This document shows positions 17,078 through 59,774 of a stretch of DNA of 59,774 nt, one piece after another. The notes below the pieces were generated by a model. The model saw only the letters and a program-made list of their open reading frames with translations, was not told the origin of the DNA and did not search any database. Every line of letters begins with the position of its first letter. Positions within the stretch are counted from its first letter, which is position 1. The stretch lies in contig JAFSWW010000101.1 in assembly GCA_017444345.1 (NCBI GenBank), forward strand, positions 1 to 59,774, read 5' to 3'. This DNA comes from Synergistaceae bacterium (GTDB lineage: Bacteria; Synergistota; Synergistia; Synergistales; Aminobacteriaceae). The position numbers were made by a program, and so were the translations under genes.

Positions 17078-17461
17078 GATTCACACTCTAAACATAAAGC
17101 AATATCAAGCATAAAAATTTTTGATTCAAGAAATAATTTACTTTCATTCTAGTTAATAATTCCCCCGCGAAAAATTTATCATGCTTCACACCTGAAACAT
17201 AAAGCAATATCAAGCCGCAAAAATTTTGATTCAAGAAATAATTTATATGCGTTCATTCTCGCAATTACCCGCAAAAATTCATGATTCACGCCTGAAAACA
17301 CGAGACAACACAGCCACGAAAATATTATTATATGCGTTTATTCTCGTAAAATTTATCATGATTTCTGCTTCAAACATGAGACAATATCAGCCCCGAAATA
17401 TTATATATATTCATTCTCATGATTCACGCCTGAAACGTGAAGCAATCTCCGCCCCGAAAAT
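17074..17461 (-). repeat. Five-copy tandem array of the tatC/mobA stop-start junction
   Basis: Five imperfect units begin with TCATG at 17074, 17179, 17279, 17356 and 17417 (spacings 105, 100, 77, 61 bp). The last is the true tatC 3' end; the first contains the mobA start codon. Each shares CAT-x-ATTCACRCCTGAAAC followed by RAGCAATATCA and, in several, a TATGCGTTCATTCTCG spacer. The ATG at 17359 opens a 26-residue ORF that begins MIN like MobA and ends FRRES like TatC, with its TGA at 17279-17281 overlapping the next ATG. The whole 339-bp gap between the two genes is made of these units. Confidence 0.85.
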
Positions 17462-28644: not shown

Positions 28645-29274
28645 ATGAAAAAATTTTTATTAGTCATTGCAATATTAAGCGCGTTATGTTCCCTTGCATT
28701 CGCTGAAGAGTTAATTATTAACAAGGACAAGGGCGAAATTATTATACCTGCTGAAGTCAACGGCAAATATTTAGTAAGTCCCACTAAGCACGCTCTATCT
28801 TTCTATAAGGGCGGAAACGGGGAGAAGTCCATAATGCGGGCTCTTGTAAGCGAGATAGATTATTATAATGCTTTAACGGAACTCGGTGCAAAACCGGGCA
28901 ATAATATCAAGCCTGAAGATATGAAAGCAAAATCAAGCGCAGAAGGCAAATCAACAGAGGGCGATAAAATTTCAGTATTCTTGACGTGGGAAGGCTCAAA
29001 CGGTGAAATCCCATTAGATGACGCTATAGAGACTCATACACCGGACGGGCAGACAAGAAAGTTAGATTTAAGATTCACTGGTAATTTAGAATTTGCGCAG
29101 AAATTTCACCCGGGCTGCTTTATATGTCTTGACTCATGCGCGGCAGGTATAACAACAAATGCTGCTTGGCCTACAGGAGCTATGAATAATAAAGAAGTCA
29201 GCTTTAAGGGTAACGCAAAAACTCTCCCGCCCGACGGAACTAAAGTCAATGTTATAGTGAGGCTCGTTAAATAA
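28645..29274 (+). CDS. Secreted YdjY-domain protein
   Basis: A 209-residue exported protein (signal peptide MKKFLLVIAILSALCSLAFA). The C-terminal half has the YdjY pattern HPGCFICLDSCAAG (C158, C161, C165), then NKEVSFKGN and LPPDGTKVNVIVRLVK. The three cysteines could hold a metal or cluster. YdjY proteins are of unknown function and often sit next to Fe-S or selenium-linked genes. One base separates it from the next small membrane protein gene, so they are co-translated. Confidence 0.75.
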   Translation: MKKFLLVIAILSALCSLAFAEELIINKDKGEIIIPAEVNGKYLVSPTKHALSFYKGGNGEKSIMRALVSEIDYYNALTELGAKPGNNIKPEDMKAKSSAEGKSTEGDKISVFLTWEGSNGEIPLDDAIETHTPDGQTRKLDLRFTGNLEFAQKFHPGCFICLDSCAAGITTNAAWPTGAMNNKEVSFKGNAKTLPPDGTKVNVIVRLVK

Positions 29275-29275
29275 A

Positions 29276-29650
29276 ATGTTGTCGCGTCTGTATAATTCTT
29301 TCTTGCTTAGTATGTTAATCAGCGTGATATTATTCAAATCCGAGTGGCTGGAAATGCGCGTTAATTTAGGCTGGGTATTTTTCGGGCTCGTTATAGTGCT
29401 TTTCTTGTTGATGGGAGCATTAAAATTTTTCTCAAGTTTCGCGGCTTCTCTGATTATATTAATAATTTCATGTTCGGGAATATTTTTATTAACAGGCCAA
29501 GAAGGAATCTCAATAATTCCTGCGTCAATAATTCGCGAGGGCATAGGGCAGACTCATATAAAATTTAACACGATAAATTATGCCTTACTTGCGATAATAT
29601 TTGCTGGCTTAATATTAACGTTTATATTTAGCAGGCGGCATGAACACTAG
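29276..29650 (+). CDS. Small hydrophobic membrane protein of unknown family
   Basis: A 124-residue protein with about four transmembrane helices and a basic end (FSRRHEH). No family recognised. It starts one base after the YdjY stop and ends in CATGAACACTAG, where the stop TAG is embedded in a sequence identical to the start of the CCG gene 200 bp downstream. That junction has been tandem-duplicated. Context suggests it acts with the YdjY protein, perhaps as its membrane partner. Confidence 0.7.
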   Translation: MLSRLYNSFLLSMLISVILFKSEWLEMRVNLGWVFFGLVIVLFLLMGALKFFSSFAASLIILIISCSGIFLLTGQEGISIIPASIIREGIGQTHIKFNTINYALLAIIFAGLILTFIFSRRHEH

Positions 29651-29870
29651 ACGCGTTATATTTGCGGGTGAGTATTTATCATGAATGCTAGAAACTTTTT
29701 AGACGCGTCAATAAATTCGGGTTATATACTCGTGAGTATTTATTTATGTGTTTACAAGTTAGGAAGTATTATAAACATGAACACTAGAAAATTTTTAGGC
29801 GCGTTTACGAGTTATTTTTGCTGGGCTATATCAAGAAATCGCTATGAACACTAGAAAATTTTTATTTAAT
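29640..29870 (+). repeat. Four-copy array of a stop-start junction before the CCG gene
   Basis: ATGAA..CTAG elements start at 29640, 29681, 29777 and 29844 (spacings 41, 96, 67 bp). The first overlaps the stop of the small membrane protein (..RRHEH); the last is the true start of the CCG protein (MNTRKFLF). The third shares 18 bases with the last (ATGAACACTAGAAAATTT). A frame from 29681 to 29854 (57 residues) begins MNARNFLD, passes through MNTRKFLGAF and ends YEH, its TAG lying inside the CCG start sequence. The first unit encodes MNTRRVIFAGEYLS and stops in an ATGA overlap with the second. Confidence 0.8.
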
Positions 29871-30644
29871 ATGGCCGTGAAGATCGATCAATTTTTTGCG
29901 GCCAGTAAATTTTTAAGACGTGCTAAGAAATCAGGCAATATTATATTTATGCCCGGTTGCAGCTTAAGAGGTTATAATCCTGAATATATTTTCATGACTC
30001 GTGATTATTTGCGGGAGAAATTAGGCGATTGCGGGATAATTACTGCTTGCTGCTCCAAACCGTTAAAATTAATAGGCGACTCGAAAACTTTTCAGCTAAG
30101 AATCAAGAATCTTATAACTGAACTCGATAACATGAACGCAAAAATTTTAATAACAGCCTGCCAAAATTGCTATAATGTCATGAAATTATATGACTCTAAC
30201 AGGAAAATTTTATCTCTATGGCCTTTAATGCAAAAATTTGGCTTGTCTGAATCACTCAAGAATAAATATTCAGGTCTTGAAGCAAGTATACAGGACTCAT
30301 GCGTTAGTAATCATGAAATTATTAAGAGTGTCCGCGAAATAGTAAAATTTTTAGGTGTAAATATTCACGAGTTCGAAAATATTAAATGTTGCGGAGGAGT
30401 CAAGACTTTAACTACCGGAAATATTAAATTATCGCGTGAATACATGAGGCAGCGTGCGTCCGAGTCACCCTGTAATGTGATAATATCTTATTGCGCGTCA
30501 TGCCGTTCAGCTATGAGTCTTGATAATAAATATAAGAGTATTCATTTACTTGATTTAATTTTCGGGAATGGCGAGCCTTTGAACTCAAAGAATAATTTAT
30601 TGAATCGCCTTATAACAGCACAAAGATTATCGCGAGAAATATAA
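29844..30644 (+). CDS. CCG-domain (heterodisulfide-reductase-like) Fe-S protein
   Basis: A 266-residue protein with two cysteine-rich CCG modules, as in HdrB/GlpC/LutA: FMPGCSLRGYNP with ITACCSKP, and DSCVSNHEI with FENIKCCGG, plus ISYCASCRSAM. Such modules bind unusual Fe-S clusters and handle electrons or disulfides. It lies 24 bp before the AhpD-like gene and ArsS and so belongs to the same operon. Its start sequence is the last unit of the junction array. The exact reaction is unknown. Confidence 0.8.
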   Translation: MNTRKFLFNMAVKIDQFFAASKFLRRAKKSGNIIFMPGCSLRGYNPEYIFMTRDYLREKLGDCGIITACCSKPLKLIGDSKTFQLRIKNLITELDNMNAKILITACQNCYNVMKLYDSNRKILSLWPLMQKFGLSESLKNKYSGLEASIQDSCVSNHEIIKSVREIVKFLGVNIHEFENIKCCGGVKTLTTGNIKLSREYMRQRASESPCNVIISYCASCRSAMSLDNKYKSIHLLDLIFGNGEPLNSKNNLLNRLITAQRLSREI

Positions 30645-30668: not shown

Positions 30669-31001
30669 ATGGGAATGTATTATAAATCTGAAGACTTAGA
30701 GAAATTTGCGGCTATGGGAGAATTTGCGCCCGATTTATGGGAAAAATTTATGGCTTATTACGGCTCAGTCTTTGAGTCAGGTGCATTGACTAAACGCGAG
30801 AAGGCATTAATTGCGCTTGCTGTTGCTCATGCCGTGCAGTGTCCGTATTGTATTGACGCTTATACACAAAGTTGTCTCGAAAACGGAGCGAATGAAGAAC
30901 AGATGACGGAGGCCGTGCATGTTGCTTGTGCTATAAGGGGCGGGGCTTCTCTCGTTCACGGTGTCCAAATGAAAAATTTAGTGAAGGAGTTATCATTTTG
31001 A
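30669..31001 (+). CDS. AhpD/carboxymuconolactone-decarboxylase-like protein of the rSAM/selenodomain locus
   Basis: A 110-residue AhpD-fold protein with redox motif CPYC (C58, C61) followed by DAYTQSCLENG and the helix EAVHVACAIRGGASLVHG. It matches the peroxidase-like family found beside ArsS in arsenosugar-type loci, where some members have selenocysteine; here the motif is CxxC. AAGGAG upstream. Its TGA stop overlaps the TTG start of arsS (TTGA). Confidence 0.86.
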   Translation: MGMYYKSEDLEKFAAMGEFAPDLWEKFMAYYGSVFESGALTKREKALIALAVAHAVQCPYCIDAYTQSCLENGANEEQMTEAVHVACAIRGGASLVHGVQMKNLVKELSF

Positions 31002-31960
31002 CGGAAATAATAAAGCCTGAAATAAAATCTTTTGAAAGCATGATAGATAATGTTAATCCCGATTATAAATTTACTCATGAAAAATTACGCGTCATTCAAG
31101 TAAATATCGGGAAATTATGCAATCTTTCTTGTAAACATTGTCATGTGAACGCCGGGCCGAATCGCACTGAAATAATGACTCGTGAGACTATGCAGCATAT
31201 TTTAAGACTACTGCCAAATTTTGAGACTCTTGACATCACAGGTGGCGCGCCTGAAATGAATAAAAATTTTTGCTGGCTCGTTGATGAGGCTGTAAAAACG
31301 GGAATTCATGTAATAGTCAGAAGCAATCTTGTTATCTTACATGAGAAAGAATATATTAACATTCCCGAATTCTTAGCAGATAGACACGTTGAAATCGCAG
31401 CGTCACTGCCTTATTATTCAGAAAATGACTGCGATAAACAAAGAGGTTCGGGAACGTTCAAAGCAATTATATCAATGCTCAAAAAATTAAATTCACTGGG
31501 CTACGGAATTGACAATAAATTAATTTTGAATCTCGTCTATAATCCCGGCGGTGCTTTCTTGCCTCCCAGTCAAAGCGAGTTAGAGCAGCAATATAAATCG
31601 CGTTTAATGTCAGATTATGGAATTAGATTTAATAATTTATTTGCGATTACTAATAATCCCATCGGACGATTTGAAAATTTCTTGAGACGAACGAATAATT
31701 ATGATAGATACATGAAAAAATTATATGACTCGTTTAACCCTGCCGCGCTTGAAAATATGATGTGCAGATCTCAAATTTCTGTAGGCTGGGACGGGCAATT
31801 ATACGACTGCGATTTTAATCAAGTCTTAAATCTCAAAATTGACGGCGTTAATAATATCTGCGAGCTTTACGAGATCCATAAACGTAAAATAAAATTTGCT
31901 GATCATTGTTACGCATGCACAGCCGGGAGCGGTTCGAGCTGCGGAGGCACTACGGCATGA
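30998..31960 (+). CDS. arsS: Radical SAM protein ArsS (rSAM/Cys-rich, arsenosugar type)
   Basis: A 320-residue radical SAM enzyme with C41, C45 and C48 (CNLSCKHC, followed by HVNAGP) and C-terminal Cys-rich block DHCYACTAGSGSSCGG. These are the defining features of the ArsS family, which attaches the adenosyl group to dimethylarsenic compounds in arsenosugar synthesis. The frame is open from 30926, but TTG at 30998 has GAAGGAG eight bases upstream and overlaps the previous stop, so it is the likely start. Glycosyltransferases follow. No arsenic methyltransferase is present, so the true substrate remains uncertain. Confidence 0.85.
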   Translation: MTEIIKPEIKSFESMIDNVNPDYKFTHEKLRVIQVNIGKLCNLSCKHCHVNAGPNRTEIMTRETMQHILRLLPNFETLDITGGAPEMNKNFCWLVDEAVKTGIHVIVRSNLVILHEKEYINIPEFLADRHVEIAASLPYYSENDCDKQRGSGTFKAIISMLKKLNSLGYGIDNKLILNLVYNPGGAFLPPSQSELEQQYKSRLMSDYGIRFNNLFAITNNPIGRFENFLRRTNNYDRYMKKLYDSFNPAALENMMCRSQISVGWDGQLYDCDFNQVLNLKIDGVNNICELYEIHKRKIKFADHCYACTAGSGSSCGGTTA

Positions 31961-51473: not shown

Positions 51474-51925
51474 GATTTCCGGGTATTTCCGGGTGGGGAA
51501 AGAGCGCGAGAAAACGGGCACGGGGTTTTCTCGCATACAGGGAATAAAAAATTTTACAGCTATAACAAGAGGGCGATAATCAATGCTTGAAATAAATTTA
51601 TTTGCATGGACAACGGGCGGGAATTTCTCTCACTCGTATTTACACACTAAAAAATTTTACAGCTAAACGAACGGAGGGCGATGATTCATGCTTGATAATT
51701 GCTTTGCGATAAATTTATTTGATGACGGCGTATTTATGGGCGGGAATTTTCTCTCACTCGTATTCACGAAATAAAAATTTTTACAGCTATAACAAGAGGG
51801 CGATATTAATGCTTGAGATAAATTTATTTGCATGGAAACGGGCGGGAATTTCTCTCACTCACATTCACGAAATAAAAAATTTTTGCACTATTACACGAAC
51901 GGAGGAGCGATAATTAATGCTTCCT
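51466..51925 (+). repeat. Five-copy array of the mnhE/mnhF stop-start junction
   Basis: ATGCTTGA-like starts occur at 51466 (overlapping the mnhE stop), 51583, 51688, 51809 and 51917 (ATGCTTCC, the true mnhF start); spacings 117, 105, 121, 108 bp. Each later start follows a GAGGGCGAT or GGAGGAGCGAT ribosome-site block. Units share ATAAATTTATTTGCATGG, GGGCGGGAATTTCTCTCAC and a TTTTACAGC stretch. They encode micro-ORFs of 37, 27, 28 and 34 residues (two start MLEINLFAW). A 15-bp core GATAAATTTATTTGC also occurs exactly at the mnhD start (54262-54276). The array fills the whole 443-bp gap. Confidence 0.85.
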
Positions 51926-57302: not shown

Positions 57303-59774
57303 TTATTCGCGCTCGACTACTATAACAGGACAATAAATTACTTCTTTAGTGAGCCACGCAGAAATTTTTATTACATGACTCTCCGGGACTGTTATAATTT
57401 CTTGGCCGGTCTCGTCAAAAAATTCCGCAATTAAATCATCTTCTGAAGGCTCGTGATTCTGCGGACATGCAAGCCAGATTAATTTTGCGCCCGTGTTTAT
57501 TTTCTCGTCAAGCTCAATATCTAAATCTAAATCATATAGGCCGCTTTCTGTTACGTGAATTTCAGGCAATACAGCAGCAATTATATATTTATCCTGCGAG
57601 TCAAATTTTATAGAATTAATATCGCGTTCAGGGCCTATAAAAATTTTCTGCTCGTGATTTATTGACTCCGAGTTTATTTCTTGTTCGGGTTCTTTCACGT
57701 CATCACTATTAGATTTGCTTGTTGTGCTTGTGCCTCTAATTATGAGCCTCAAATTTTTTGACGCTTGGCCGCCTGAATTCTCTGCAATTATAGTTATATA
57801 CTCGTCAAATGCTTCTGTAGGAGTGCCGCTTAATGTTCCGGTTTCTTCGTCAAATTCGAGTCCCGCGGGCAAATTTCCGGAATATTCCCATGTTATAGGA
57901 GCTGTTCCCGTTGCTCTGATAATTGACACATATGCTTTTCCTACAGTTCCATTAACAAATATTGACTTAATTGTTGGAGCTATTCCCTTAATTGTAAGAT
58001 TATAAATTTGTGAGAATGTCCCAGTTTTATTTGTTGCTGTAACAGTGAATATAAATGTGCCTATTTCTTTAGGAGTTCCGCTAATTGTCCCCGTGTTTGA
58101 TTTTAGAGTGATTCCAGCAGGCAGAGTCCCGTCTGTAAGAGTAAAAGTAACCGGCTTAGTTCCTGAAAAAATAATCTTATGAGAATATTTTGTGTTAATT
58201 GTGCCGTCTGGTAATGATTCATCGTCAGCTATTCCGGGAGGTGCAGAGATAACAAGCTTTAATTTTTTCGACACTTTTTTTGAATCATTTTCTGCGTAAA
58301 TTGTAACCGTGAAATTTCCTGATTCGGTCGGGATTCCTGAAATTTGATTATCATTTATTGATAGTTCCATAGGCAGCCCTGACGCAGTTATATTTATTGT
58401 CGGACTCCCAGTTACAGAAATATCCGCGCTGTATTCAGTGTTAATCATGCCTTCAGGAAGTGATGAAGTCTTTATGGCCGGAGCAATTTTCTTTATAGTG
58501 AGCTTGAAAGTTTTTGACGCTTTGCCCGCCGTGTTTTCCGCAGTAAATTTAATTTGTAAATTATTGCATTGTTCCTGCGGTATGCCTTTAATAGTGCGTG
58601 AAGTCTCATCAAAATATAATCCTTCAGGTAAATTATCGGAAATAGTGAAAGTTATCGGCTCTGTACCAGTTAATTTTATAGGGGACTCGTATTCTTCTAA
58701 GTAAGTGCCGTTGGATAATTTGCTAGTAGTTATCTTGGGTGGAATTGCAGCTATATTGAGAATAAAATTTTTCTTGTCCTCTCCTGCCGGGTTGCTAAGT
58801 GTAATTGTTAATGAATATGTGCCGAATTCTTTAGGAATACCGTAAAATTTACCAGTTTCAATATCAAATGATAGTCCTTCGGGCAAATTCCCTTCAAGAG
58901 TCCATGTTAAAGGTTTTGTGCCTGTACAAGCTAATTTTTTGTTATATGCCTTGTCAATTTTTCCATTTGCTAGAGTCTTTGTAGTAATTACCGGCAGCAC
59001 ATAATTTGAAATCGTGAAAGATTTTGAATCAGTCCCGTATGTATTAGACGCTTGAATTATAAATGAAGATTTACCGGCAGATTTTATAGTGCCTGATATA
59101 AGCCCCGATGTAGAAAGTTTCAAGTTTTGGGGAAGTTTTCCGCCTATTATCTTCCATGTTATGGGAGCTGATCCCGTTGCATTAAGCTGGAATGAATAAT
59201 TTTGCTTAACTGACCCCGGCAAAATTTCTGTAGTAGTAATTACAGGTGCGCCTTCTGTTGTACTTTCTGAAATAGTGATAGTGAATTCTTTAGAGTCATT
59301 GCCGTATGAGTTCGCAGCTTTTACAGTAAATGTGAAAGTCCCCGCAGTCGTCGGAGTTCCTGAAATTTTGCCGCTGGAATTAAGACTCAAGCCGTCCGGT
59401 AAAGTCCCGGAGTCCAGCGTCCACGTTATAGGAGTCGATCCTGCCGCAATCACTGTAAAATTATAGCTTTTATTCTCTGTCCCGTTCGGGAGTGAATTTG
59501 TAGTAATTTCAGGTACAGCAAATATAGAAATTGTGAATTGTTTTGACGCGCTGCCATAATTATTTGAAGCCTGAACTGTAAATGTAAATATTCCCGCTGC
59601 CGTTGGAGTTCCTGTTATAGTCCCGGCTGAATTAAGAGTCAAGCCAGTGGGTAATTTGCCGCTTGTTATTCGCCACGTTATAGGAGTCGCCCCTGTTGCA
59701 GTGAGTGAAGCACTATAGCTCGTATTTAATTCTGCGTCTGCAAGTGATACTGTAGTGATTACAGGAATCTCGCC
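57303..59774 (-). CDS. Ig-like (He_PIG-type) repeat surface protein, 5' truncated by window edge
   Basis: The frame is open to the window end, so the N-terminus is missing. It holds at least eight repeats of about 83-90 residues, each with a PITW..LPxGL core, a TGxISGTP turn and a TVxAxNxxG strand, typical of putative Ig domains of bacterial adhesins. The repeats diverge from the N- to the C-terminal side. A Ser/Glu-rich linker (TSTTSKSNSDD) leads to a distinct C-terminal domain of about 100 residues (IAAVLPEIHVTESGLYDLDL, WLACPQNHEPSED). Likely secreted or surface-exposed and used in adhesion. Confidence 0.85.
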   Translation of the reverse strand, partial: GEIPVITTVSLADAELNTSYSASLTATGATPITWRITSGKLPTGLTLNSAGTITGTPTAAGIFTFTVQASNNYGSASKQFTISIFAVPEITTNSLPNGTENKSYNFTVIAAGSTPITWTLDSGTLPDGLSLNSSGKISGTPTTAGTFTFTVKAANSYGNDSKEFTITISESTTEGAPVITTTEILPGSVKQNYSFQLNATGSAPITWKIIGGKLPQNLKLSTSGLISGTIKSAGKSSFIIQASNTYGTDSKSFTISNYVLPVITTKTLANGKIDKAYNKKLACTGTKPLTWTLEGNLPEGLSFDIETGKFYGIPKEFGTYSLTITLSNPAGEDKKNFILNIAAIPPKITTSKLSNGTYLEEYESPIKLTGTEPITFTISDNLPEGLYFDETSRTIKGIPQEQCNNLQIKFTAENTAGKASKTFKLTIKKIAPAIKTSSLPEGMINTEYSADISVTGSPTINITASGLPMELSINDNQISGIPTESGNFTVTIYAENDSKKVSKKLKLVISAPPGIADDESLPDGTINTKYSHKIIFSGTKPVTFTLTDGTLPAGITLKSNTGTISGTPKEIGTFIFTVTATNKTGTFSQIYNLTIKGIAPTIKSIFVNGTVGKAYVSIIRATGTAPITWEYSGNLPAGLEFDEETGTLSGTPTEAFDEYITIIAENSGGQASKNLRLIIRGTSTTSKSNSDDVKEPEQEINSESINHEQKIFIGPERDINSIKFDSQDKYIIAAVLPEIHVTESGLYDLDLDIELDEKINTGAKLIWLACPQNHEPSEDDLIAEFFDETGQEIITVPESHVIKISAWLTKEVIYCPVIVVERE

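Follow-up and report, generated by a model that had tools for sequence, protein, structure and literature searches.

Start-sequence arrays between operon genes of an uncultured Synergistales genome: probable tandem duplications across tight gene junctions

The mem/CCG junction

We analyzed a stretch of 59,774 nt (the window) from the genome of an uncultured, gut-type Synergistales bacterium. Three genes follow one another on its plus strand: a ydjY-domain gene (28645-29274; NCBIfam NF040466, E 1.4e-37); mem, an ORF for a 124-aa membrane protein (29276-29650), whose homologues adjoin CCG in relatives; and CCG itself, a gene with a cysteine-rich domain (29844-30644; PF02754, E 1.8e-10). A spacer of 193 nt (29651-29843) separates mem from CCG. 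CCG is followed, at 30669-31960, by a gene resembling arsenosugar-associated peroxidases (TIGR04169) and by an ArsS-type radical SAM gene (TIGR04167); a role of the operon in arsenosugar metabolism is therefore possible.

The sequence ATGAA(C/T)(A/G)CTAG was found four times at this junction, at 29640, 29681, 29777, and 29844. In copy 1, ATGAACACTAG at 29640-29650 encodes the H-E-H-stop of mem and simultaneously provides an ATG; the mem stop thus lies inside the copy. Copy 3 (29777-29797) and the CCG start, which is copy 4, agree at all of 21 nt, and copies 2 and 3 are 86% identical over 29 nt. The initial annotation had described a four-copy array of start sequences here, with the end of mem serving as a start-like sequence that recurs at 29681 and 29777, and our results bear this description out. 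Moreover, ATGAA[CT][AG]CTAG occurred only four times in 581 kb of the genome, every time within the array, and the self-similarity of the mem/CCG gap reached z=7.2 over dinucleotide shuffles.

We then examined the reading frames of the gap. Copy 1 opens a 14-codon micro-ORF, MNTRRVIFAGEYLS (29640-29684, plus strand), and the TGA of this ORF overlaps the copy 2 ATG. Copy 2 opens a 57-codon ORF (29681-29854, plus strand) that stays in frame across copy 3 and terminates with Y-E-H-TAG inside the CCG start, as had been proposed. Because of the overlap at copy 2, the two ORFs together span the whole gap, with a stop/start overlap at each hand-over. The two starts of the longer ORF, MNAR and MNTRKFL, resemble that of CCG, and its YEH end resembles the HEH of mem; the start and end of this predicted 57-residue product would be accounted for by a CCG 5' end joined to a mem 3' end. 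It had no match in Pfam or NCBIfam. Both frames are predicted ORFs, and their peptides are putative.

Junctions in related genomes

We compared the mem/CCG junction among relatives. Eight same-genus relatives have a single copy of each gene. In every one of them the mem stop and the CCG start overlapped directly, usually in the form ATGAACATTAA, as their sequences show, and the 193-nt spacer was missing. Because mem and CCG overlap in these relatives, the spacer is an insertion and the overlap is the older arrangement, in agreement with the earlier suggestion that the unexpanded overlap is ancestral. We also looked in the relatives for a longer homologous gene between mem and CCG, of which the array might be the remnant, and saw none. 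Among named relatives the nearest is a metagenome bin from red deer, whose CCG gene is 83% identical; it is evidently genome G016. Because the G016 contig starts within CCG and the genome yielded no mem gene, the junction could not be read there. In genome G019 (L022 1495-2747, G019:C99), a partial tandem CCG copy of 454 nt precedes CCG, so the junction was duplicated on a larger scale there.

The mem/CCG case is one of a genome-wide pattern. At the tatC/mobA junction (17078-17420, minus strand), where the initial annotation had recognized the same logic, the genes overlapped in three relatives and were 339 nt apart in this genome, and the gap held diverged units made of the mobA 5' end and the tatC 3' end; the parallel was thus confirmed. 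A third array was found at mnhE/mnhF (51474-51916, plus strand). These genes overlapped in 19 same-genus relatives, were separated by 443 nt with four units of 105-121 nt here, and by 97 nt with one unit in G016. At least three further junctions lie outside the window. At C8:14460-14613, the distance was -8 to +2 in 13 relatives, +153 here, and +219 (with Ns) in G016; at C88:14480-14738, it was +6 to +19 in 11 relatives, +258 here, and +101 in G016; and at C95:6108-6410, it was -4 in G017, +11 in G018, and +302 here. Five junctions besides mem/CCG were therefore tight in relatives and expanded by 153 to 443 nt in this genome, and G016, an independent assembly, was expanded at all three junctions that could be read (+97, +101, and +219). 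The six junctions were chosen for being expanded here, and the regularity lies in their tightness in the relatives.

To gauge the extent of the pattern, we surveyed 581 kb of the 2.33 Mb genome. Genes were called by a simple script of our own, and gaps of 60-600 nt were scored for locus-specific repeats at z>6. Among 116 codirectional gaps, 15 held such repeats, as did 11 of the 46 divergent gaps. When the entire 581 kb were scanned, 35 gap duplications emerged, or 608 per Mb noncoding, most with lags of 81-123 nt. The corresponding values were 342 in G017, 244 in G016, and 963 in G024; two same-genus genomes of higher GC gave 65 and 0, and four other families gave 0, 0, 0, and 217. In 100 kb of E. 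coli, used as a control, there were one strong duplication (lag 101) and two weak ones. These rates are approximate, because the samples were partial and some contigs had been picked for weak hits. Gap duplications were abundant in the AT-rich members of the genus and rare in the controls, and the junction expansions were confined to part of this one genus.

About a quarter of the divergent gaps also held duplications, and the process is thus not limited to operon junctions. The duplications in divergent gaps were locus-specific and about 90-160 nt long (L113 6795-7199, L108 10034-10559, and L117 18302-18703, among others). One 87-nt array ended contig C20 (L108 15851-16143) and began contig C82 (L113 1-171). 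Since arrays can break assemblies in this way, they are probably undercounted.

Origin of the spacers

The arrays most likely arose by local tandem duplication across a gene junction that was tight and probably coupled in translation. If the duplicated segment starts within the upstream gene's 3' end and stops within the 5' end of its downstream neighbor, both genes would stay intact, and the sequence inserted between them would consist of a downstream 5' part followed by an upstream 3' part. Repeated duplication, in units mostly of 80-120 nt, would produce an array of start sequences, which would then decay through substitution and indels. We infer that the duplications hit at random and persist where the genes are unharmed.

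We aligned the spacers locally to their flanking gene ends and, for comparison, to the ends of other genes in the genome. The spacers at tatC/mobA, C8, and C95 matched both flanking gene ends (p at most 0.005), and several others matched on one side. The mem/CCG spacer matched the CCG 5' end (p=0.0025), whereas its match to the mem 3' end was weak (p=0.05; 71% over 41 nt). For mnhE/mnhF, the alignment to gene ends recovered no flank origin. The termini of the ORFs within the units were chimeric in the same manner. At C95, two 39-aa ORFs start with MKKF like the downstream protein and end with TVIQK or MVIQG, compared with TVIQE in the upstream protein; units at C8 end with VRLYA and MRLYV, resembling the upstream gene; and a tatC/mobA unit ends with SRVFRRES, compared with SRFRRES in tatC. 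The density of gap duplications favors the duplication account as well, and so do the repeats inside genes, which were multiples of three in 11 of 12 cases. Some observations speak against it. Random duplication does not explain why units of about 80-120 nt are favored, coupled last ORFs were somewhat commoner than simulated neutral decay predicts (see below), and the weak mem 3' match and the unrecovered flank origin at mnhE/mnhF also count against it.

Other origins were considered. Mycobacterial interspersed repetitive units (MIRUs) are short intergenic repeats with a small ORF that is coupled to the next gene via a stop/start overlap and disturbs expression little, and they have been described as one mobile, dispersed family (PMC12548453). 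The architecture is similar here, since the small ORF of a unit is overlap-coupled to the following gene at mem/CCG, C8, C95, and mnhE/mnhF of G016, but the likeness is one of architecture only. Units of different loci were barely more alike than ordinary intergenic gaps; a dispersed family was apparent against shuffles, but the excess nearly vanished against such gaps, and the top match was the single array split between two contig ends. Every locus carries a distinct unit made from the genes that flank it, the mem/CCG motif is unique in 581 kb, and several spacers are built from flanking genes instead of arriving as an insertion at a start codon. Because the units form no dispersed family in the 581 kb surveyed, they are not a MIRU-type mobile element in spite of the architecture, and we consider a mobile element that carries a coupled ORF of its own into start codons very unlikely. 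Still less credible is that a gene once stood between mem and CCG and decayed to the present array: the composition of the 57-codon ORF is weakly coding-like, but it has no family match and the relatives have no gene there, mem and CCG overlapping instead. An assembly artefact deserves equally little credence. The draft metagenome bin consists of 141 contigs and one array lies at two contig ends, but the copies have diverged from one another at some 10-35% of positions, and G016, assembled separately, is expanded at three junctions.

As repeats, the arrays are minisatellite-like. They share with minisatellites and VNTRs head-to-tail related units of tens to about 120 nt and a copy number that varies between close relatives, with spacers of 443 vs. 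97 nt at mnhE/mnhF and 258 vs. 101 nt at C88 (this genome vs. G016). They are unusual in that the unit spans a gene boundary, each copy carrying a start and a stop, and in that one genome has many such loci. We found no description of such a junction-duplication pattern in the open-access literature that was searched. The window had no Rfam match for a structured RNA, and the folding of the units was not unusual (mean z -0.46 vs. -0.69 for other gaps).

Translation across the spacers

In E. coli and Haloferax, translational coupling is nearly lost at a distance of about 20 nt (PMC10666635), so an untranslated spacer of 193 nt should uncouple mem and CCG. However, each duplicated unit opens with a downstream start and closes with an upstream stop, and the spacer thus need not fully uncouple the genes. 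Such a unit can carry a chimeric micro-ORF that would pass the terminating ribosome to the next start, and ribosomes presumably use this relay. The ancestral junctions are overlaps of the termination-reinitiation type (PMC10666635), and the hand-overs in the arrays imitate them; the difference is that any coupling here would pass through intermediate micro-ORFs.

It is possible, though we think it unlikely, that the duplications arise in the same manner and selection then keeps the chain of micro-ORFs open, preserving or tuning the coupling of the two genes. Relays using only ATG starts span 6 of the 15 codirectional array gaps, where shuffling would lead one to expect 0.9; of the 60 other gaps, 3 are spanned. 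However, simulated junction duplication gave a relay in 58-60% of cases before decay and in 5-44% at 10-30% substitution, varying with the number of units. Because a duplicated junction carries the relay along with it, the 6 of 15 are not exceptional (P 0.06-0.28). The last ORF was coupled to the downstream gene in 9 of 15 codirectional arrays but in only 8 of the 60 other gaps (Fisher test, p=0.0005), and for divergent arrays the figure was just 1 of 22 sides. Under simulated neutral decay, 31-36% of last ORFs are expected to be coupled, fewer than the 9 of 15 observed (P 0.017-0.047), but three other genomes gave 4 of 10 (13 of 25 combined). Pooled comparisons of unit copies gave a pN/pS of 0.52, but in the largest pair it was 0.95. 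A single 34-codon ORF is kept at mnhE/mnhF in G016; the unit lengths at tatC/mobA (61, 77, 100, and 105) break the frame. Taken together, these sequence comparisons suggest that selection may act on the micro-ORF relay. A broader claim, that the lineage builds MIRU-like relays from its own junctions, appears rather doubtful: recurrent duplications of about 100 nt would create chimeric micro-ORFs, selection would keep the chain open, operons would lengthen without loss of coupling, and novel chimeric peptides, such as one in which a downstream signal peptide is fused to an upstream C-terminus, would be exposed.

Duplication across the junction offers a simple, testable route from overlapping to spaced genes by way of intermediate small ORFs and with no mobile element. 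Across the related genomes, junctions range naturally from those with no unit to those with one or several, and the disputed passage of ribosomes through micro-ORFs becomes testable. Short ORFs in operon gaps should be annotated with caution, as they can be duplicated gene ends instead of genes. At C95 (L126, 6178-6410), the two 39-aa micro-ORFs combine a downstream signal-peptide-like N-terminus with an upstream C-terminus; the upstream and downstream genes at this junction are paralogues of each other.

Repeats of other kinds were also seen. A large protein encoded on the minus strand of the window (57303-59774) has internal repeats of 252-255 nt (84-85 aa). At about 5500 and at 6700-6780 of L117, arrays with a 7-nt period flank one gene and may be slippage tracts of the phase-variation kind.
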